Positions 17,451 to 28,579 of a stretch of 64,000 bases of DNA are shown one piece after another. The notes under the pieces were generated by a model. The model was given only the letters and a program-made list of their open reading frames with translations, did no database searches and had not been told where the DNA came from. A program made the translations under genes and the position numbers. How positions within the stretch are numbered: the first letter of the stretch is position 1; each line of letters begins with the position of its first letter. This DNA is from Hypnocyclicus thermotrophus (lineage in GTDB: Bacteria; Fusobacteriota; Fusobacteriia; Fusobacteriales; Fusobacteriaceae), in assembly GCF_004365575.1 (NCBI RefSeq), contig NZ_SOBG01000003.1, positions 62,001 through 126,000 on the forward strand, in the 5' to 3' direction.

Positions 17451-17614
17451 ATGAAAAAAAATTTTTCCATCTTAAAAATATCATTTTAAACAATTTAAAA
17501 ATAAATGACAAAAATATAAATAATCTATTTATTAGTTCAATGTTTATTTTTTCTTATGACAAAAACACTCAAAAAGTTTTAAATGAAAAAAATAAAATCA
17601 ATTTCAATTGGTAA
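17451..17614 (+). pseudogene. Frameshifted short reading frame before pelD (possible pelD 5' end)
   Basis: AAGGAG (17436-17441) is well placed for ATG 17451, but that frame stops at once after an A8 run. One frame over, the sequence stays open from 17453 to TAA 17612-17614, with a protein-like composition (KKFFHLKNIILNNL start). pelD itself starts at 17583 with no ribosome site. One extra A in the A8 run and one fewer in the later A7 run (17584-17590) would join ATG 17451 to pelD as a longer N-terminus. Alternatively it is a separate small ORF. Decisive: sequence of a related strain. Confidence 0.35.
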
Positions 17615-18902
17615 TATCAAATACAAAAATATAGAAATTAATTCTGAAAAAAATAATATTATAAAAAAAATTATATTCCTTATAGTTGAATCAATTATTC
17701 TTTTTGGAGGTATTTTTACTTATTACTTTTATTTTTCACCATTTAAAGAAACATTTATTAATTTAAATATTCATCCCTATATAATAATTATTGCATTAAT
17801 TGCTATTCGATATGGAAATTATCTAACATTAATCTCAAGTACTATTGCAAGTGGATTTTTTATTTTTAGTTATTATTTATTAGACAAAGATATTATTATT
17901 TTCTTTAATGATTTTTCTCATTATAAATTTTTGTTAATGTTTTATATTACAGGTATTTTTATTGGTAAAGTAAAAGATGATCATACAGACAAAATAAATA
18001 CTTTAACAAAAAAAATTGAAATTTTAGAAGAGAATTATGATAAATTACGTGATACATTTGATAAAAACGAATTTATAAAAAAAGAATTGAAAAAACAAAT
18101 TATAACATCAGAAGAAAGTATTTTTTCTCTTTATGAAATAGCTAATTCAATGGAAAAACTCGATTCAGAAGAAGTTTTCACAGAGATAATAGGTGTTATT
18201 ATAAAATTTCTAAAAGCTAAAACTGTCTCATATTATACATTAAATAATTATAAAAATTTTCTTAGATTAAAAATACGTTACGGTAATAATTTTACTTTGC
18301 CTTCATCTATTGATATCAAACATGAAAAATTTTCTTATTTAAAAAACATTATAGAGAATAGATCTTATTATAAAATTTCTAATAACAATAATGATACTCC
18401 TATTATGAGTGCGCCAATTATAGCAGGAAATGAAATTCTAGGAATAATAAATATAGAAGAATTGGATTTTGAATATACAACGGAATATACTTTTAATCTA
18501 TTTAAAATAATAATTGATTGGACAAATAATGCTTTAGAAAAAGCAGAAAACTATAAACTTGCATCAGAAGGAAAGGTAAAAATAGAAAAATATTATAAAA
18601 ACACTAAAATTTATAAAAAAGAATATTTTAATAAAAGAGTATTATTAGAAGAAGAAAGAAAAATTAAATATAATTTAAATTATATTATTTTAGAATGTAA
18701 AAATAATTTAAATTTTTCTATACTTGAAATTGAAGAAAAATTTAGAAAAGTAATACGAGATGTGGATATTTTAGGATATGATGAAGATAAAAAAATAATT
18801 TCTATTTTATTACCTGCAACTAATATAAAATATTTGGATATAATAAAAGAAAGAATAGAATCAAAATTAGATTCTGAATTGGTGGTATATCATGCAAAAT
18901 AA
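17583..18902 (+). CDS. pelD: Pel polysaccharide c-di-GMP receptor PelD
   Basis: PelD is the inner-membrane subunit that activates Pel synthesis on binding cyclic-di-GMP. The 439-residue protein has four hydrophobic helices (about 28-48, 63-82, 84-101, 113-129) and a coiled-coil stretch (135-175). A GAF-like domain follows (about 180-320), then a degenerate GGDEF domain. The GGDEF signature is replaced by DEDKK, so it cannot make c-di-GMP. The inhibitory-site motif RxxD is kept as Arg392-Asp-Val-Asp395, the residues PelD uses to bind the nucleotide. ATG 17583 has no ribosome site, so the true 5' end may be at 17451. The stop overlaps the pelA start. Confidence 0.85.
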   Translation: MKKIKSISIGNIKYKNIEINSEKNNIIKKIIFLIVESIILFGGIFTYYFYFSPFKETFINLNIHPYIIIIALIAIRYGNYLTLISSTIASGFFIFSYYLLDKDIIIFFNDFSHYKFLLMFYITGIFIGKVKDDHTDKINTLTKKIEILEENYDKLRDTFDKNEFIKKELKKQIITSEESIFSLYEIANSMEKLDSEEVFTEIIGVIIKFLKAKTVSYYTLNNYKNFLRLKIRYGNNFTLPSSIDIKHEKFSYLKNIIENRSYYKISNNNNDTPIMSAPIIAGNEILGIINIEELDFEYTTEYTFNLFKIIIDWTNNALEKAENYKLASEGKVKIEKYYKNTKIYKKEYFNKRVLLEEERKIKYNLNYIILECKNNLNFSILEIEEKFRKVIRDVDILGYDEDKKIISILLPATNIKYLDIIKERIESKLDSELVVYHAK

Positions 18903-20715
18903 AAATAAAGTCTTAATATTAATTATTACTATTTTTATTACTGGTTTTTCTATTCAATTATTTCGTATAATAAATACAAATAGTTTGTTTAAGGTAAAAC
19001 AGCCTAAAACTCAAAATAATTTTTCTTATTCTTCTAGTAAATCTAAATTGAAAAACTATGATAAAATATATATTTTATTTAATAAAAATAATACTGATAT
19101 TAATAGTGTTTATTATAATTTAATAACAGTATTAAAACAAGCAAAAATTGAGTATATCAACATAGAAATAAATGATCCACTCCCAAAAATTAAGAAAAAT
19201 GATCTATTATTAATAACAACAGAAAAAATTAACATCTCTAAAAAAAATCTTAGAAATTTAACTAATATTGGAGTAAATATTGGGTTTTTAATTAGAACCA
19301 GCAAAAAAAATATACAAGAATTTATTGGTATAAAACCAAAAATTTATAAATATAATATAAAAAATGGAATAAAATTCAAAAAAAATATATTTCCAAAATT
19401 AAGTGATATCTCTTTGAATTCGGATGTTATTTTACATTCACTTTTAAATATAACAAAAAATGATTTTAATTCAAATATTGATATAATAGCAGAGACTGCA
19501 GAAAATAATCCTATTATTTGGATAAATAAATATAATAAAAGTAAAATTTTATTTGTTAATTCTAGCCTTTTTCAAGACAAATTAAACCGTGGATTAATGC
19601 TTCAATTGATTACCTCTATAAATAATAATTTTTTACCCTTTATATTTAATGCAAAACTTATACATATTGATGATTTCCCAGCTCCAATAAAACAAGGAAA
19701 AGATGACATAATTTTTAAAGAATATGGGATAGATAATAGTGTATTTTTTAAAAATATTTGATTATCTGATGTATTTAATTTATTTAAAAAATATAACTTT
19801 AAACCTACAGCATTTATTATAGGACAATATAATTTAGATGTAAATAATTTCCCTGATTTTTATGAAAGTGATATAAATGATATAAATTATTTAGGAAGAA
19901 AACTTTTAGAATTTAATAGTGAACTTGGTATACATGGTTACAATCACAATTCATTAGCTACAGATACTGAAATGAACTTTAAAGATTATGGATACAATCC
20001 GTGGCCTTCACAAGAAAAAATGGAAGAATCACTTAGAAAACTTAAAGACTTAATTTATTCAATATACGGTAAAATACCTATTTATTCATATGTTCCCCCT
20101 TCAAATATTATAGGAATTAAAGGACAAAAAGCAATCAAAAATGTATTTCCAGAAATAAAGGTATATGCTGGACTTTACATTGCTTCACAAGAAAAAGGTG
20201 TTCTTTTACAAGAATTTGGACCAAATAAAATAGTTAATGGTGTCTATAATCTACCTAGAATAAGCTCTGGATATATTTATGATAATTCTCAATTATGGAA
20301 TATATACAATGTAATTGCTCAATTTGGATATTTTAATCATTTTATTCATCCCGATGATTTATTATCTAAAGAACGTTCTAAAAATATGACTTGGAGAGAA
20401 TTGTATAAAAATTTCTCTTTACTTTTAAATGATGTTCATAAATCATTTTCTTTTTTAAGACCTATGACTACAATAGAATTTTATAATAGTTATAAGTCTA
20501 ATAAACAATTAAAGGTTTATTCAAAACAAGAAAACAATAAAATTTTTCTAAATTATAAAATGGCCGTATTTCCTGTACATCATTATTTTAAAAATTATAA
20601 AAAAATAAAATCAATTACTGGTGGAAACTATAAATTATTATTTTCAAATGATGAATACTATCTTTATTTAATAACATCTACTTCTAATGATGTTGTAATC
20701 GAATTAGAAAATTAG
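18892..20715 (+). pseudogene. pelA: PelA-like deacetylase interrupted by an in-frame TGA
   Basis: The 608-codon frame is continuous except for TGA at 19759-19761 (codon 290). The region has a signal-anchor helix, a Rossmann-like reductase-type domain (residues about 45-250), then a CE4-type deacetylase with IHIDDFPAPI (Asp260/261). After the stop come HGYNH (348-352) and FIHPDD. The stop separates the metal/base Asp from the two His, so the truncated product would be inactive. The surrounding residues (FFKNI-stop-LSDVF) suggest an original Trp, TGG to TGA. PelA deacetylates Pel; its usual N-terminal GH114 hydrolase is absent here and sits in a separate gene at 26241. Nonsense mutation or sequencing error are both possible. 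Confidence 0.8.
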
Positions 20716-20723
20716 GTGATTAT

Positions 20724-21698
20724 ATGTTATATACTATTTTACTTGCTATATTTTTTTTATTAGATATAAAATTTACTATTGATGCATTTTATTTTTTTTA
20801 TTATGATATACAAATTTATCTATTAATACATCTACTTTTATATTTTATCTATATTTTAGTTTCTAATTTATTAAATGAAGATACTACTTTTTTTAACTAT
20901 TTTGCATTGTGTATACCAATATTTGGTTTTTTTATGACTATTTTAAATAAACTTTTTACTAAATACCCTATACAAAATGATATAATTGATGATTATGAAA
21001 AATATTTGAAATATATAAATAACAGAAATCAACTTGAAAAAGTAAATGTTTTTGAAGAGATAAATATAATGAGTCTAGTTAACTCTCTTAATGTAAAAAA
21101 TGAAGATGATAGAAAACAAGAATTTATAAAATTTATAACTGATAATACTGATATAAAAGTTTCTATACTAAAAAAATCTATTAATTCAGATGATAAAGAG
21201 ATAGCACATTATGCCAGTACTATCCTTAGTTTTTTATCTGAAAATTTTGAAAATTTAATAGAAAATGCTCGAAAAAAATATCACATTGACAATAAAATTG
21301 AAGTTATTAATGATATTATAGATTATTATAATAAATATTTAGAATCAGAAATTATAGAAAAAGAAGTAATCCAAAACTATTATTACGAGTATTTAAAATT
21401 TTTAGATCTTGTATTAGCCGATGAAAGAATTAAAAAGAAAGAACATATTTTATTTAACAAAGCAAGAATACTATTTAAATTGAATAGATGTAAAGAAGCT
21501 TATCGACTAATAAATAAATTATTGGAAAAAAATGAAACTATTGAATATTATATGTTAAAATTACAGATATTATTTAACAGTAAAAAATGGCGAAAAATTA
21601 AAAAAATAGCACACTATATATTTAATACTCCAAAATTAAAAGATAATATTCCCGAAGAATATAAAGAAATCATAAAATTTTGGATAACATGGAAATAG
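20724..21698 (+). CDS. pelE: PelE-like membrane protein of the Pel synthesis complex
   Basis: The position between pelA and pelF and the layout identify it. The N-terminal two or three hydrophobic helices (about 1-24, 28-48, 55-75) are followed by an all-helical cytoplasmic region of about 240 residues. That region includes TPR-like units (FNKARILFKLNRCKEAYRLINK). PelE contacts PelD and PelF at the inner membrane in the known Pel systems. Length (324) is close to PelE of Pseudomonas. Sequence conservation in this family is low, so the call relies on context as well as topology. The frame is intact, unlike its neighbours. GGTG lies just before ATG 20724. Confidence 0.7.
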   Translation: MLYTILLAIFFLLDIKFTIDAFYFFYYDIQIYLLIHLLLYFIYILVSNLLNEDTTFFNYFALCIPIFGFFMTILNKLFTKYPIQNDIIDDYEKYLKYINNRNQLEKVNVFEEINIMSLVNSLNVKNEDDRKQEFIKFITDNTDIKVSILKKSINSDDKEIAHYASTILSFLSENFENLIENARKKYHIDNKIEVINDIIDYYNKYLESEIIEKEVIQNYYYEYLKFLDLVLADERIKKKEHILFNKARILFKLNRCKEAYRLINKLLEKNETIEYYMLKLQILFNSKKWRKIKKIAHYIFNTPKLKDNIPEEYKEIIKFWITWK

Positions 21699-21716: not shown

Positions 21717-23139
21717 ATGAAAACAATTTGTTTATTAGCAGAATCCTATCCATATATTGCGGGTGGTGTATCTTCATGGATAAATCAATTAATCTCAGAA
21801 TTACCAGAATTTAATTTTAAAATTATATCTATTATGCCTTCTGATAAAGAATTTACTGAATATAAATATAAAATTCCTAAAAATATAATTTCTATTGATA
21901 CATTTTATTTACAAGATTTTAAAAAATTTTCTGCTACACCAAAAGAAAAAAAAATAAAATTATCAAAACAAGAATTAATTACATTAAAAAAATTTATACG
22001 ATTTGACCCTTCTATTAATTGGAAAACTTTTTCTAACTTAATTAGAAATATTGAAAAAAATAGGAACCAGTGTAGATTTTTTAAAAAGTAAAATCTTTTG
22101 GAATTTAATTATTGAATATTATAAAGATAAATTTCCAGAAGAAGGATTTAATGAGTTTTATTGGACAATATCATCAATGTTTTTATTTTTTATAACTGTT
22201 ATGCAACATAATCTCCCAAAAGCTGATATTTATCACGCGGTGTCTACTGGTTATCCTGGATTATTAGGGCTAATTGCTTCTCAAAGTTATAATAAAAAAT
22301 TTATATTAACTGAACATGGAATTTATGCAAGAGAGAGAGAAGAAGACATTATAAAAGCTGATTGGATTCGAAAAAAATATAAAAAATTATGGATAGATTT
22401 ATTTTATTTTATTTAAATTGGTGCATATAAAAATGCCGACGTAACTATTTCATTATTTAATGCCAATAAAAAAATACAATTAAAATATGGTAGTAAAAAA
22501 GAAAGTACTATAGTTATTCCAAATGGAGTTGATTTAAAAAGATATAATATTGAAAAAATTAAACATAAAAAATTTAATATTGGTGCTGTCGTTAGAGTTG
22601 TCCCTATAAAAGATATAAAAACATTAATTAGAAGTTTTAAAATTGTAATAAACAAATTAAAAACTACTGATATAAAATTATATATTATGGGGCCTTACGA
22701 AGAAAACTTGGAATATTATAAAGAATGTGTAGATTTAGTTAAATTTTTAGATCTAGAAAATTTAGTTATATTTACAGGAATAATTAACGTAAGTGAATAT
22801 TTAAAAAAAATAGATTTACTTGTACTTAGTTCTATTTCAGAAGCACAACCACTTGTAATTTTAGAAGGACTTGCTTCTGAAATTCCTTTTGTTTCTACAG
22901 ATGTTGGTGCTTGTAAAGAATTATTGTATGGAAATGAACAGGACAAATTAGGAAAGGCAGGAATAATTGTCCCGCCATTTTCTCCAAAAGAAATGAGTGA
23001 AGCTATTATAAAATTATATAAAAACAGAGAGTTACTCTATAAAATGGGTAAGATTGGTCGAAAAAGAATTGAAAAATATTATACAAAAGAATCTTTTATT
23101 AAACAATATAGAGATTTATACATGAAAATAGGTAATTAA
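21717..23139 (+). pseudogene. pelF: PelF glycosyltransferase (GT4) broken by a frameshift and a stop codon
   Basis: PelF is the cytosolic UDP-sugar transferase that polymerises Pel. The frame from 21717 shows AESYPYIAGGVSSWINQLI, typical of PelF. At the A7 run 22053-22059 the frame must drop one base to continue into VDFLKSKIFWNLI. A TAA at 22414-22416 then interrupts that frame just before GAYKNADVTISLFNANK. Downstream the enzyme continues with IPNGVDLKRYN and the GT4 EX7E region EAQPLVILEGL. Restored length would be about 473 residues, normal for PelF. Two independent lesions make a functional product unlikely, unless they are assembly errors. Confidence 0.85.
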
Positions 23140-23140
23140 T

Positions 23141-26100
23141 ATGGCAGGGATTGGTTTTGAATTAAAAAAAATGTTTGGAAAAGATGATACATTAACTAAA
23201 AGAGTAAAAGCCTATACTTATTCTACATTTGTATCAGCTGGACCCTGGATAATAACTATATTAGTTTTAAATATATTTTCAATTATTTCAAATTCTTTTT
23301 TTAGTGAATTAGTTGAAAAGAGTTTATTTATGGGAAGTATAGTCTATAGCTTTATATTTTCTCAAATAATTACAACACCTTGGCAAATGTTAATTACTAG
23401 ATACATATCAGATGAACTTTACATAAAACGTTATAGCAACATAAAAGCTTCATTTATTGGATTAACTAAAATTGTAATTATTTTATCATTTTTAACAGGT
23501 TATTTATATTATCTTAATAAAGATATTCCTTATTATTACAAATATATATCTATTTCATTACTTGTAATTACTTCACTTACATGGATAATTATGGTATTTT
23601 TAAGTAGTATAAAAAATTATAAATCTATATCAAATTCATTTATATTAGGTGGTACAATAGCTATAATATTGGAAATAATATTTTTAAAATATCCAATTAA
23701 TTTTGTTATATTTAAAAGCTCTACAAATATGCTTTTTGCTTATACCATAGGCATGTTTTTTACATATATGGGACTTGTTTATAGTTTTTTCAATACCTTT
23801 TCAGAAAAATCAGGAAAACAATTTGATTTTATTAGATATTTATCAAAATTTCCTTCAATATTTTTTATAGGACTTTTTTATATACTTGGATTATGGATAG
23901 ATGACATTTTAATTTGGTTTAGTTTTTTAGGAATTAACATAAAAAATATTTTTAGATTTTCACCGCTTTATGATACTGCTATATTTTGGGCTTATTTTAT
24001 TACTATTCCATCTTATGTACTTTTTGTAATAAAAATGGAAGTAAGTTTTTATGATAAATATAAAAAATATTTTTCGTTAATTTCACATAATGGTAATTTA
24101 GACGATATTGAGTCTGCAAGAAAAGATATGAAAACTACATTATATAAAGAATTAATACATCTCTTTGAAATACAAACTATTATTACTATTACTGCTATTG
24201 TTCTAGTAAATAAAGTTGTTGCCATTTTTAATTTACCTTTATTATTAGTACAAATATTTAAAATTTCAGCACTTGGTTCTTTATGTAATGTATTTATTTT
24301 AATAATTATTTTAATAATGCTATATTTTGAATATCGAAAACAAGCATTATTTATTGCTTTTTTATTTTTATTTTTTAATACTTTTTTTACTTTAATTTTT
24401 ATACCATTTGGTAGTAATTTTTTTGGTGCTGGATACTTTATTGCTACATTTACTACTTTAATAATTGCCCTGATTTTATTAGTTTATTCTCTAAAAGAAA
24501 TAAATTATTATACTTTTTTTAGACAACCAATATTTTCAGTCATTAAGAAAAACAATTTCAATTTCAATGGAATAAACAATATCATTTTAAAATTTAAAAC
24601 TTTTTTTTCAAATAGAAAAGTATCGTTAATAACACTAATTCTTTTAGGATTTTTAATATCTTATTCTGCAATAGTATATTATGATCCTGATAATGCTGAA
24701 AAAAGAAAACAAGATTTGATTACTAAATTAAATATATTTTTAGAAAAAAATAAACCTTCAGTTATTTTAGGGCGTGAAAGAAAAAATCTTACAAATATTA
24801 ACAGTGGTGTTCTTATAATTAATAATAAAAACAGTAATAAAAATAATAAAAACAAAACAATTATTCAAAAAAATCCAATTATTTTTAATACATATAATTT
24901 ATCTACAAAACCATCTCAAAATTTACCTAATGAATTATCTATTGACTTTAAAAATAATAACCTTTTTTCAAAAATAAATAATGATATAGATTCAAATGAA
25001 ATTTTTAATAACACAAAAAAAGATGTTAAAACATTAAAAAGTAAGATACAAGAGGATATAAATCAAAAAAATAATTTAATTATTAATAGCAAACTAAGCG
25101 AAGAATCACTTCAAAACAATAAAAAAACTAATAATAATATTAAAAACTCCCAAAATATTCAAAAAGATAAGAAAATAGAAAATAATATTATCGTTGATTC
25201 AATAAAGAAAAAAGAAAAAAATATATCTATTGTAAATAAACTTTACGGATATAATACTTTTCAAAAAAATTTATACTATGATGAAGGTTTAAATAATATA
25301 TTTAACTATAACAAAAATAATTTAAAATTTTTATCAAATACTTTTTTAGGTTTAAATAGTAATTCTAATTACTTGTATAATAGATTTTATCTAGAATACA
25401 TTAAAAATAATAATATTTTTGGTTATAAAAATAGCTTTTCTATTGGGAATATAGGAGAATCAAACAAATTATCAGTACTAAAAGAATATGATGATATATT
25501 TTTAGTAGATAGCTTAATTTATAGAGATTTATATTCGGTCAAAAATAATGATTATGGAAATATTAATACAGAATTTATAAATTCACTGTATTTTATTAAT
25601 AAAAATTTTAAAATTGCTACTTACTATTCAAAAGAAAATTTATATTATTTTAAAAATTTTACTCTGAAATATAAATTTAATAATAATTTTGGCGTTTTTT
25701 ATATTCCAAGAAATCTAATAAATTATTTTTATAAAAATGTATTCCGTGACATAGATAATAATTCAAAATTTGATGATGGAAATAAAGATGAAATAATATT
25801 TGCTAAAGAAATACATAATAAAAAATATAATTTAGGAATTTATAACTATAAATTCCTTCATTTTATCGCTTACAAAAACACAATAGCATCTTTAAAAGAT
25901 TATATTTTTTATATTGAAAATGATTTTTTAAATAAAAGTTTAACAACTTATTATAGTGAAAATTATAAAAATTACATTTATTTAAATTATAACTACGATT
26001 CAAACAAATATTTTATTAATAATAAACAATTTTATAATAATAATGTTTATTCTTTAATTGAAATCTCTAATAATAACTATAACTTCATTTATAATCTTGG

Positions 26101-26239
26101 AAAAGAATTTGTTATTAATAATAATGTTGACATTAATTTAGGAATCGGAAATACTCCTTTTTATTCTGTATGGGATAGTTGGAGAATCAATGAAGATAAT
26201 AAATTTTATTTTTATTTAAATTTTAAAAAGGAGTTTTAA
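23141..26239 (+). CDS. pelG: PelG transporter fused to a C-terminal beta-barrel-like domain
   Basis: Residues 1-460 are PelG: start MAGIGFELKKMFG, about twelve transmembrane helices, and STFVSAGPWIITI near residue 30, all typical. PelG moves the growing Pel chain across the inner membrane and normally ends near residue 456. Here the chain continues with another hydrophobic helix (495-515) and an Asn/Lys/Ile-rich linker (516-700). A final 330-residue region of alternating short strands follows, rich in Tyr/Phe/Asn, with a Ca-site-like loop DIDNNSKFDDGNKDE (about 870-884) and a C-terminal Phe after aromatic residues. Those are marks of outer-membrane barrels. No pelB porin or pelC is present, so the extension may supply the export pore. 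Frame intact. Confidence 0.85.
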   Translation: MAGIGFELKKMFGKDDTLTKRVKAYTYSTFVSAGPWIITILVLNIFSIISNSFFSELVEKSLFMGSIVYSFIFSQIITTPWQMLITRYISDELYIKRYSNIKASFIGLTKIVIILSFLTGYLYYLNKDIPYYYKYISISLLVITSLTWIIMVFLSSIKNYKSISNSFILGGTIAIILEIIFLKYPINFVIFKSSTNMLFAYTIGMFFTYMGLVYSFFNTFSEKSGKQFDFIRYLSKFPSIFFIGLFYILGLWIDDILIWFSFLGINIKNIFRFSPLYDTAIFWAYFITIPSYVLFVIKMEVSFYDKYKKYFSLISHNGNLDDIESARKDMKTTLYKELIHLFEIQTIITITAIVLVNKVVAIFNLPLLLVQIFKISALGSLCNVFILIIILIMLYFEYRKQALFIAFLFLFFNTFFTLIFIPFGSNFFGAGYFIATFTTLIIALILLVYSLKEINYYTFFRQPIFSVIKKNNFNFNGINNIILKFKTFFSNRKVSLITLILLGFLISYSAIVYYDPDNAEKRKQDLITKLNIFLEKNKPSVILGRERKNLTNINSGVLIINNKNSNKNNKNKTIIQKNPIIFNTYNLSTKPSQNLPNELSIDFKNNNLFSKINNDIDSNEIFNNTKKDVKTLKSKIQEDINQKNNLIINSKLSEESLQNNKKTNNNIKNSQNIQKDKKIENNIIVDSIKKKEKNISIVNKLYGYNTFQKNLYYDEGLNNIFNYNKNNLKFLSNTFLGLNSNSNYLYNRFYLEYIKNNNIFGYKNSFSIGNIGESNKLSVLKEYDDIFLVDSLIYRDLYSVKNNDYGNINTEFINSLYFINKNFKIATYYSKENLYYFKNFTLKYKFNNNFGVFYIPRNLINYFYKNVFRDIDNNSKFDDGNKDEIIFAKEIHNKKYNLGIYNYKFLHFIAYKNTIASLKDYIFYIENDFLNKSLTTYYSENYKNYIYLNYNYDSNKYFINNKQFYNNNVYSLIEISNNNYNFIYNLGKEFVINNNVDINLGIGNTPFYSVWDSWRINEDNKFYFYLNFKKEF

Positions 26240-26240
26240 G

Positions 26241-27089
26241 GTGATAATACTACTATTAATAAGCTTAATATTTATAAGTTGTTCTGGAAATGATATAAAA
26301 CAAAATAATGATAATAATAGCTGGCTTGTACAATATCAAAATATTAATATTGATGATATAATTAAGAGTAACTATAAAACAGTAATAATTGACTATTCAA
26401 AAGATGGTAGTGATATGCATAGTTTTACAAAATCAGAGATAGATAAACTCAAAAATCATAATATAAAAGTAATCTCATATTTGAGTATTGGAGAAGCCGA
26501 AGACTATAGATTTTATTGGAAAAATTCTTGGAATACAAAATATCCTATTTGGATAAAATATGAAAATCCAGATTGGAAAGGTAATTATAAAGTAGAATAT
26601 TGGAATAAAGAATGGGAAAATATTATCTATATTTATCTTGATAAAATTTTAAAAATTGGTTTTGATGGTGTCTATCTTGATGTTATTGATGCTTATAAAT
26701 ACTTAGATTCTAATATTAATTATAATGCTGAAAAAATGATAGAATTTATTGAAAAAATTTCCATATATACAAAATCTAAAAATCCTAACTTTTTAATTAT
26801 TCCACAAAATTCTGAAGATTTATTAAAATATGATAAAGAAAATAAATTTTTAAATAGCATTGATGGTGTTGGTGTAGAAAGCTTATGGTTTTATAAAAAT
26901 AAACCTCAAGATAAAAAAAATACTGATTATCGATTAAAATTTTTAAGACAATTACAATCTAAAGGAAAATTTATTTATGTAATAGAATATATAAATAAAA
27001 ATATTTATACTGCAAAACAACTTGCTATTAAAAATAATTTTTATTATTATATAGCAAAACCTGACTCAGATCTTGATGAAATAAATTAA
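26241..27089 (+). CDS. GH114 endo-alpha-1,4-polygalactosaminidase-like lipoprotein
   Basis: The start is GTG 26241, with AAGGAG at 26228-26233. The first residues are a lipoprotein signal (lipobox FISC, Cys14). The body is a complete GH114 barrel: WLVQYQNI, VIIDYSKDG, IKVISYLSIGEAEDYR, WKGNYKVEYW, GFDGVYLDVIDAY, and IIPQNSED. It ends with VGVESLWF and YVIEYI. In Pseudomonas this domain is the N-terminus of PelA and cuts Pel; here it is a separate lipid-anchored protein closing the operon, 1 bp after pelG. It probably trims or releases Pel at the periplasmic face or cell surface. It is intact although pelA and pelF are broken. Confidence 0.88.
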   Translation: MIILLLISLIFISCSGNDIKQNNDNNSWLVQYQNINIDDIIKSNYKTVIIDYSKDGSDMHSFTKSEIDKLKNHNIKVISYLSIGEAEDYRFYWKNSWNTKYPIWIKYENPDWKGNYKVEYWNKEWENIIYIYLDKILKIGFDGVYLDVIDAYKYLDSNINYNAEKMIEFIEKISIYTKSKNPNFLIIPQNSEDLLKYDKENKFLNSIDGVGVESLWFYKNKPQDKKNTDYRLKFLRQLQSKGKFIYVIEYINKNIYTAKQLAIKNNFYYYIAKPDSDLDEIN

Positions 27090-27090
27090 A

Positions 27091-27150
27091 AAAAATAAGA
27101 ATAACGTCACAACTTTAAAATAAAAAATTGTGGCATCTATTCTTATTTTT
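27091..27150. terminator. Bidirectional terminator after the pel operon
   Basis: AAAAATAAGAATA (27091-27103) pairs with TATTCTTATTTTT (27138-27150), with an inner stem CACAA/TTGTG. It separates the GH114 gene from the convergent diguanylate cyclase gene. Confidence 0.8.
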
Positions 27151-28579
27151 TATATTCTACAATTTTATTTTTTCCCTCTTCTTTTGCTTTATAAAGGGCT
27201 TCATCAGATTTTTTTATTAATCTTTCTATATTATCATCCTTTTCAAGAAAAGCTACTCCTATACTAAGTGTTATTTTTAATATTTCTTCATCTGCTGTAA
27301 TATATGTTGACATAATTTTTTGACGAATCTTTTCTAATTTATCCATTATATATTCTTTTTTCTTATCAAAAAATATGGCTACAAATTCATCTCCTCCATA
27401 TCTTGATAAAATATCTTCATTTTTTAAAAATTCTTTAATTATATTAGTTACTATAATTAAAGCTTTGTCTCCTATATCATGACCAAACGTATCATTAACT
27501 GATTTAAAATTATCTATATCTATAGTGCAACAAGCAATAAAAGTATTTTCTTTTTGATATTCTACTATTCTTTTAGCAGTTTCTTCTAAAAAACCTTTTC
27601 TATTAAATGTTTTTGTTAAATAATCTGTTAATGCTTCATTTTTAATTTTTTTATTACTTAATATATATTGCAAAATTAATATCAAGTAAATAAATACAAT
27701 CAAAATAGTTGTTGTTATAAAAATAGCCCCTATTTCTTTTATTTTGATTTCACTACTTTGCATAACTTCATCTAATGACATAGCTTGAATAATATCTAAT
27801 TTATCTATATTTGTTTTTTGCTTAATAAAAATAAAATTATTTCCATCTATAAAATATTCTAAATAATCTTTTTTATTCAATTCGTTTATTATATTTTTAT
27901 TAAAATTAATATTTTTTTTGCTTTTTAATATTATTTCATTATTATATAGTAAAAAATTAAATCCATGAATACCAATCACATAATTTTTTAAATCATTTTC
28001 AAAACTATCTATCAATATATCTGCTCCAATATATCCAATTATTTGATCATTTTTTCTTATAGCTTTAACTGCTGTCATTCCAATTTTTTTTGTAGTGTAC
28101 TCTTTATATGGAGTGGTAAAAACAGCTTTATTACTAGTTTGTGCAAAACTATACCACGGACGTTTTTTCACATCATAATTTTTATCACTTATAGTTCCAT
28201 TACTATCAATATAAAAATTTGCGCTATCATTTGCCAACCACACAAGATAAACTTCATCATCTATTTTTTCTAATTCTAATAATGTTTTTAAAATACTATT
28301 ATATTCAGTTCTTAAAATATCTCTTCTTTCTTTAGTTTCTTTTAAATAATTTATTAATTCATTATTTTTAGAAATTATTTCTACTGCATAAAGTGTTTTT
28401 TCAAGTTTATGCGATATTTCTTTATCCTGTCTTTTCGTTATTTCTAAAAAATTAATCACATTTTTATTTTTTATCTCTTTATATACTTTTTCTCTTACAA
28501 TAACATATGAAGCAGTTATTATTATTATGACTAATAAAAAACTAATAATATTTATTTGTAACTCCTTTTTTTTATTCAT
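27143..28579 (-). CDS. Membrane diguanylate cyclase with Cache sensor domain
   Basis: The 478-residue protein has a transmembrane helix (about 10-28) and an extracytoplasmic dCache-type domain (35-270, with RPWYSFA and GYIGADILID). A second helix (285-308) leads to a C-terminal GGDEF domain (about 315-478). The active motif is intact, RYGGDEF at 393-399, with DIDNFKSVNDTFGHDIGD upstream. The product-inhibition site is KxxD (386-389) rather than RxxD, so feedback control is probably lost. It should make cyclic-di-GMP in response to a small external ligand. It lies tail to tail with the pel operon, whose PelD binds c-di-GMP, so a functional link is likely. GGGAG precedes ATG 28579. Confidence 0.93.
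   Translation of the reverse strand: MNKKKELQINIISFLLVIIIITASYVIVREKVYKEIKNKNVINFLEITKRQDKEISHKLEKTLYAVEIISKNNELINYLKETKERRDILRTEYNSILKTLLELEKIDDEVYLVWLANDSANFYIDSNGTISDKNYDVKKRPWYSFAQTSNKAVFTTPYKEYTTKKIGMTAVKAIRKNDQIIGYIGADILIDSFENDLKNYVIGIHGFNFLLYNNEIILKSKKNINFNKNIINELNKKDYLEYFIDGNNFIFIKQKTNIDKLDIIQAMSLDEVMQSSEIKIKEIGAIFITTTILIVFIYLILILQYILSNKKIKNEALTDYLTKTFNRKGFLEETAKRIVEYQKENTFIACCTIDIDNFKSVNDTFGHDIGDKALIIVTNIIKEFLKNEDILSRYGGDEFVAIFFDKKKEYIMDKLEKIRQKIMSTYITADEEILKITLSIGVAFLEKDDNIERLIKKSDEALYKAKEEGKNKIVEYKK

Follow-up and report, generated by a model that had tools for sequence, protein, structure and literature searches.

The window analysed here, a 64,000-nucleotide stretch of the Hypnocyclicus thermotrophus genome (contig NZ_SOBG01000003.1, positions 62,001 to 126,000), carries a pel operon in the order pelD-like gene, DUF2194 deacetylase gene, pelE-like gene, pelF, pelG fusion and GH114 glycoside hydrolase gene (Table 1). 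The arrangement is that of the pelDEADAFG-type operon, with pelD, pelE, deacetylase, pelF and pelG together and no pelB or pelC within the operon (as a preliminary description of the locus had stated), and it recurs in the second species of the genus (genome G001). Immediately after the operon both species have, on the opposite strand, a gene for a dCache-GGDEF protein; its product is a possible source of c-di-GMP for the pelD-like protein.

The pelG gene (23141-26239, forward strand) is one uninterrupted open reading frame of 1032 amino acids. The PelG model (PF16933) aligns over its full length with residues 1-459 (E=2.9e-136, 455 bits against a gathering cut-off of 29). Like other PelG proteins, this one stands among pelD-like, DUF2194, pelE-like, pelF and GH114 genes; it is unlike them in its roughly 570 extra residues, comprising a helix, a linker and a putatively exported domain, and most extensions of PelG in other Fusobacteriota are of a different kind. 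The complete PelG, the extra helix (residues 494-512) and the Asn/Lys-rich linker in a single frame are as first described, as is the C-terminal Phe, an aromatic last residue being common to all three members of the C-terminal domain family. Residues 461-496, ahead of and into the helix, hold seven Lys or Arg and no Asp or Glu, a distribution that favours a periplasmic C-terminus. By hydropathy there is no hydrophobic segment beyond residue 520, and codons 441-1032 contain no ATG and only two GTG or TTG codons. Without an internal ATG, independent synthesis of the C-terminal domain is improbable, and separate translation was accordingly rejected; with no second hydrophobic segment either, export would have to proceed solely through helix 494-512.

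Table 1. Features of the pel locus in the window, with the loci of other PelG fusions
Feature	Coordinates or loci	Strand	Comparison with G001	Basis and remarks
pelD-like gene	17583..18902	+		GAF match below cut-off
DUF2194 (PelA deacetylase) gene	18892..20715	+		in-frame TGA at 19759
pelE-like gene	20724..21698	+		weak TPR match
pelF	21717..23139	+		3-base deletion near 21743; frameshift near 22054; in-frame TAA at 22414
PelG core, polytopic inner-membrane Pel exporter	23141..24520 (residues 1-460)	+	92% identity, dN/dS 0.09	PF16933; hydropathy segments
Extra transmembrane helix	24620..24676 (residues 494-512)	+	84% identity, dN/dS 0.20 (helix region)	hydropathy 2.38; no lipobox; basic stretch 461-493 ahead
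Asn/Lys-rich linker	24701..25231 (residues 521-697)	+	47% identity, 20 gapped columns, dN/dS 0.66
C-terminal domain, predicted to be exported	25232..26236 (residues 698-1032)	+	83% identity, dN/dS 0.14	separate homologue L069:2449-3648, E=1.6e-21
GH114 glycoside hydrolase, PelA hydrolase-like, lipoprotein-like N-terminus	26241..27089	+		PF03537 E=1.5e-22; TIGR01370 E=3.2e-79
dCache-GGDEF protein	27143..28579	-		PF00990 E=1.3e-38
Repeat-fused PelG genes, other Fusobacteriota	L012, L014, L015, L016, L051-L064			mostly behind internal lipobox at about residue 500
PelG fusions of Bacilli	L080-L082, L087, L090, L091, L093, L097-L099, L107, L112, L115, L117, L121			lipobox at junction

Conservation of the fusion and damage to its operon

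The second species of the genus carries the same fusion, 1050 amino acids long from the equivalent start and 80% identical over its whole length. Divergence between the two species is distributed unevenly (Table 1), in a pattern that indicates purifying selection on both the PelG core and the C-terminal domain and a fast-evolving, nearly neutral linker. Because a second species keeps the fusion, with low dN/dS at both ends, chance read-through does not account for it; the open reading frame is a genuine gene fusion, conserved in the genus.

The operon itself is damaged in the window genome. Lesions that the preliminary description does not mention interrupt both pelF and the deacetylase gene there; the two genes are whole in G001, and the flanking genes tested in the window genome (methionine synthase, uvrA and polA) are intact. 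An altered genetic code was rejected as the cause, one in-frame stop being TGA and the other TAA, with a frameshift besides. With these two genes disrupted, Pel synthesis has probably been lost in the window strain, if the assembly is right, and the pathway would no longer be active there. Broken genes are also seen in other Fusobacteriota pel loci, among them a pelG with stops (L017, genome G037), a barrel-like gene with a TGA (L055, G088) and a split pelF (L064, G054), and Pel loss may be recurrent in the phylum. One might conclude from the lesions that the fusion is itself a decaying remnant, without function in any member of the genus. That the sister species has the same fusion together with intact pelF and deacetylase genes, and that the C-terminal domain evolves at a dN/dS of 0.14, make this highly improbable; the loss applies at most to the window strain.

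Origin of the C-terminal domain and other PelG fusions

Among 98 Fusobacteriota genomes searched with a single sequence and then with a profile, the domain family is confined to the two genomes of this genus; the fusion, which the preliminary description had proposed to seek more widely in the phylum, was thus found in the second species and the domain in none of the others. Two weak matches from the single-sequence search (E 0.002-0.007) were dropped, as they were not upheld with the profile. No match to the domain was found in Pfam, NCBIfam or PDB sequences. A full-length relative does occur in Candidatus Mcinerneyibacterium, where it is a protein of 399 residues (31% identity). Unlike the fused domain it is the product of a separate gene and has a hydrophobic N-terminus predicted to act as a signal peptide, and that gene is the first of a pel operon ordered domain, GH114, pelD, deacetylase, pelE, pelF, pelG. 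The other loci fetched around PelG contain no further relatives, and the tail that directly follows the window helix has no significant similarity to the tail of Mcinerneyibacterium PelG. The conserved blocks in the alignments of the family include LKExDxIFLxDxLxYRDLYxVxxN. An Asp/Asn-rich stretch of the window domain (25748-25792, DIDNNSKFDDGNKDE), with the Mcinerneyibacterium counterpart DINRNGTAVDESGKD, resembles a calcium-binding loop.

Since its only separate relative found heads a pel operon, the domain belongs to Pel export, and what was joined in this genus were two pel proteins, an exported product of the pel operon having become attached to PelG. Mcinerneyibacterium accordingly encodes the two parts separately, as a free domain homologue and a pelG, and this counts against the preliminary description. 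An Omp85/BamA-family protein is present both in this genus and in Mcinerneyibacterium, so that an outer membrane is to be expected in each and is very likely in the latter.

PelG is fused to other partners elsewhere. In most other Fusobacteriota it precedes a different domain, built of YDxxGFxxxGIxxxTG-type repeats without a Pfam match; three of these proteins have an alanine-rich, signal-peptidase-I-like junction in place of the lipobox, and one genus (L013, L065-L067) has an unfused PelG, with the repeats on a lipoprotein of their own encoded beside it. In Bacilli of the genera Paenibacillus, Brevibacillus, Rummeliibacillus and Psychrobacillus, a lipobox marks the junction in 15 of 15 PelG fusions and precedes a long passenger; in the one tested (L080) this passenger is a CotH kinase domain (PF08757, E=5e-65), and the remaining ones begin with a like sequence. 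CotH-like genes adjoining Gram-positive pel operons have been reported as separate genes (PMC7112168). We found no description in the open-licence literature of a PelG with an exported C-terminal domain, or of Fusobacteriota pel operons. The lipobox-led fusions resemble the window protein in that an added helix and then an exported domain follow PelG at the corresponding position, and are unlike it in their unrelated passengers, in their lipobox and in their separate origins on the PelG tree. Three changes on that tree are needed for the three kinds of fusion; on at least three occasions PelG has acquired an exported C-terminal domain, each time with an unrelated passenger. Horizontal transfer of the operon is not claimed; the clade formed by the other 22 Fusobacteriota rows does not include the PelG of this genus, yet all 24 may group together (support 79.7).

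Because most of them have a lipobox at the junction, the repeat and CotH kinase fusions look like cleavable precursors. This weakens the earlier proposal that a single chain runs from the inner to the outer membrane, of which the single open reading frame with its fusion stands. By extension, helix 494-512 might act as an internal signal peptide, the chain then being cut and the domain set free in the periplasm or the outer membrane, with no bridge across the envelope. The lipobox and signal-peptidase-I-like junctions of the other fusions point in this direction, as do the separate lipoprotein of one Fusobacteriota genus, the free homologue in Mcinerneyibacterium and, at the end of the window helix, an SYS-A sequence conserved in both species. 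Against this, SYS-A is a tolerable rather than a strong signal peptidase I site, there is no lipobox at the junction helix of either the window protein or its G001 counterpart, and there would be less call for a long linker separating the domain from the site of cleavage. We consider a released domain somewhat unlikely, and a tethered one, tentatively, the more likely of the two.

The empty export slot and the barrel question

A PelB profile that recovered two held-out PelBs at 3e-90 and 1e-74 found no PelB in the window genome (G000), in G001, in Mcinerneyibacterium or in Propionigenium maris; the lack of pelB noted in the operon thus extends to the genome. A separate barrel-like protein, for which a signal peptide is predicted, is encoded in each of the 22 other PelG-positive Fusobacteriota genomes, beside the pel genes in nearly every case (in one, just fragments on a contig end). 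This protein, assigned to the barrels on the strength of its alternation and of a single weak match to OMP_b-brl (E=3e-5, below cut-off), is missing from both genomes of the present genus, alone among PelG-positive Fusobacteriota, and from Mcinerneyibacterium too. The family is new (alignment A2: L012:5423, L014:5777, L016:11662, L013:3064 and 17 more) and may be the Pel pore of Fusobacteriota. As it is missing just in this genus, the C-terminal domain could replace it by its position in the system, and so may fill the slot that it leaves empty.

This empty slot is the best remaining argument for the model of the preliminary description, in which the domain is an outer-membrane export pore joined to PelG and the chain bridges both membranes. 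The absence of PelB from the genome and the presence of BamA are in keeping with it. The counterpart in that model is the PelB of Pseudomonas aeruginosa, a TPR scaffold with a 16-stranded outer-membrane barrel, for which it has been suggested that an uncleaved helix, N-terminal to the TPRs and barrel, stays in the inner membrane, so that the protein bridges both membranes (PMC12141448); a two-membrane-bridging chain is not itself a new idea. Unlike PelB, the window protein has no TPR match, no match to the PelB profile and no barrel-like alternation, and it has a low-complexity linker and is fused to PelG.

Strand alternation was scored as hydrophobicity autocorrelation on the Wimley-White interface scale (lags 2 and 4 minus lags 1 and 3), expressed as z against shuffles. 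The window domain scores -0.9, its G001 counterpart -0.6 and the Mcinerneyibacterium homologue -0.2, values to be read in the knowledge that the statistic is home-made, that barrel and non-barrel classes overlap and that the domain family comprises just three members. Five E. coli outer-membrane barrels range from 1.1 to 3.2, 17 PelB barrels from 0.4 to 3.5 and the 21 separate pel-locus proteins of other Fusobacteriota from 1.0 to 3.6, so that the domain and both relatives fall below all 43 known or likely barrels (0.4 or more). Non-barrels overlap with these ranges, with a mean of -0.54 and a maximum of 1.7 among 26 E. coli proteins other than outer-membrane barrels, and a mean of -1.1 and a maximum of 0.8 among 14 AT-rich proteins of the same loci (PelF, deacetylase and GH114). 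As a family average the C-terminal domain scores -0.9 against 3.7 for the separate pel-locus proteins. Two other hydrophobicity scales, and likewise the first version of the test, gave the same sign for the window and G001 domains. Homology between the domain and the separate barrel-like proteins was sought with BLAST, HMMER and hhalign and was not found by any of them; nor was homology to PelB barrels found by profile (hhalign probability 0). AlphaFold2 gave a pLDDT of 31 for the window domain alone, too low to read any fold, and a pLDDT of 29, an unusable model, with the Mcinerneyibacterium homologue as query and the window domain in the alignment.

The outer-membrane barrel features once ascribed to the domain are therefore not borne out: its alternation is like that of non-barrels, it has no Pfam, NCBIfam or PDB match, and a barrel identity is not supported. 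With a home-made statistic and overlapping classes, the probability of a barrel is lowered only, and a very Asn/Tyr-rich barrel could escape the test. A pore tethered to PelG is distinctly unlikely in light of the scores, the lack of profile homology or of a PDB chain match, and the absence of a confident model. We would likewise judge it very unlikely that an inner-membrane Pel transporter and an outer-membrane pore belonging to a new family of barrels share a single polypeptide, which SecYEG and BAM would both have to handle. Were it so, synthesis, export and exit through the outer membrane would all be held together.

A proposed periplasmic partner for PelG

The reading that we favour, with confidence evenly balanced for and against, is that the C-terminal part belongs to the Pel machinery as an exported domain of non-barrel type, more likely tethered to PelG than released and serving as its periplasmic accessory. 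PelG would insert into the inner membrane, and the extra helix, behind its strongly basic cytoplasmic stretch, would carry the C-terminal part across into the periplasm. With a linker of about 180 residues, roughly 65 nm when stretched, the domain would have within its reach the exit of PelG, the cell wall or the periplasmic side of the outer membrane. There it may act on the Pel chain emerging from PelG, as an accessory present in a 1:1 ratio with the transporter. Purifying selection at both ends of the fusion, a sister species with intact pelF and deacetylase genes, a free full-length homologue heading the Mcinerneyibacterium pel operon, and an alternation test that groups the domain with non-barrels are all consistent with such a tethered, non-barrel accessory. 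On the other side, this genus alone among PelG-positive Fusobacteriota lacks the barrel-like protein, which is the pattern expected of a domain that serves as the pore, an aromatic residue closes the chain in three of three members, and the alternation test is of our own making; the SYS-A sequence after the helix, as a tolerable signal peptidase I site, speaks against the tether itself.

The fusion bears on the question of how Pel passes through the envelope of outer-membrane bacteria that have neither PelB nor PelC. Nearly every Fusobacteriota pel locus examined combines an exported PelG extension, or an adjoining lipoprotein, with a separate barrel-like protein; this genus instead has a fused domain of a new family. 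More broadly, PelG fusions, mostly with a signal-peptidase-type junction, point from sequence alone to the periplasmic partners of PelG, and they raise the question of whether a polytopic transporter can be the precursor of a lipoprotein.
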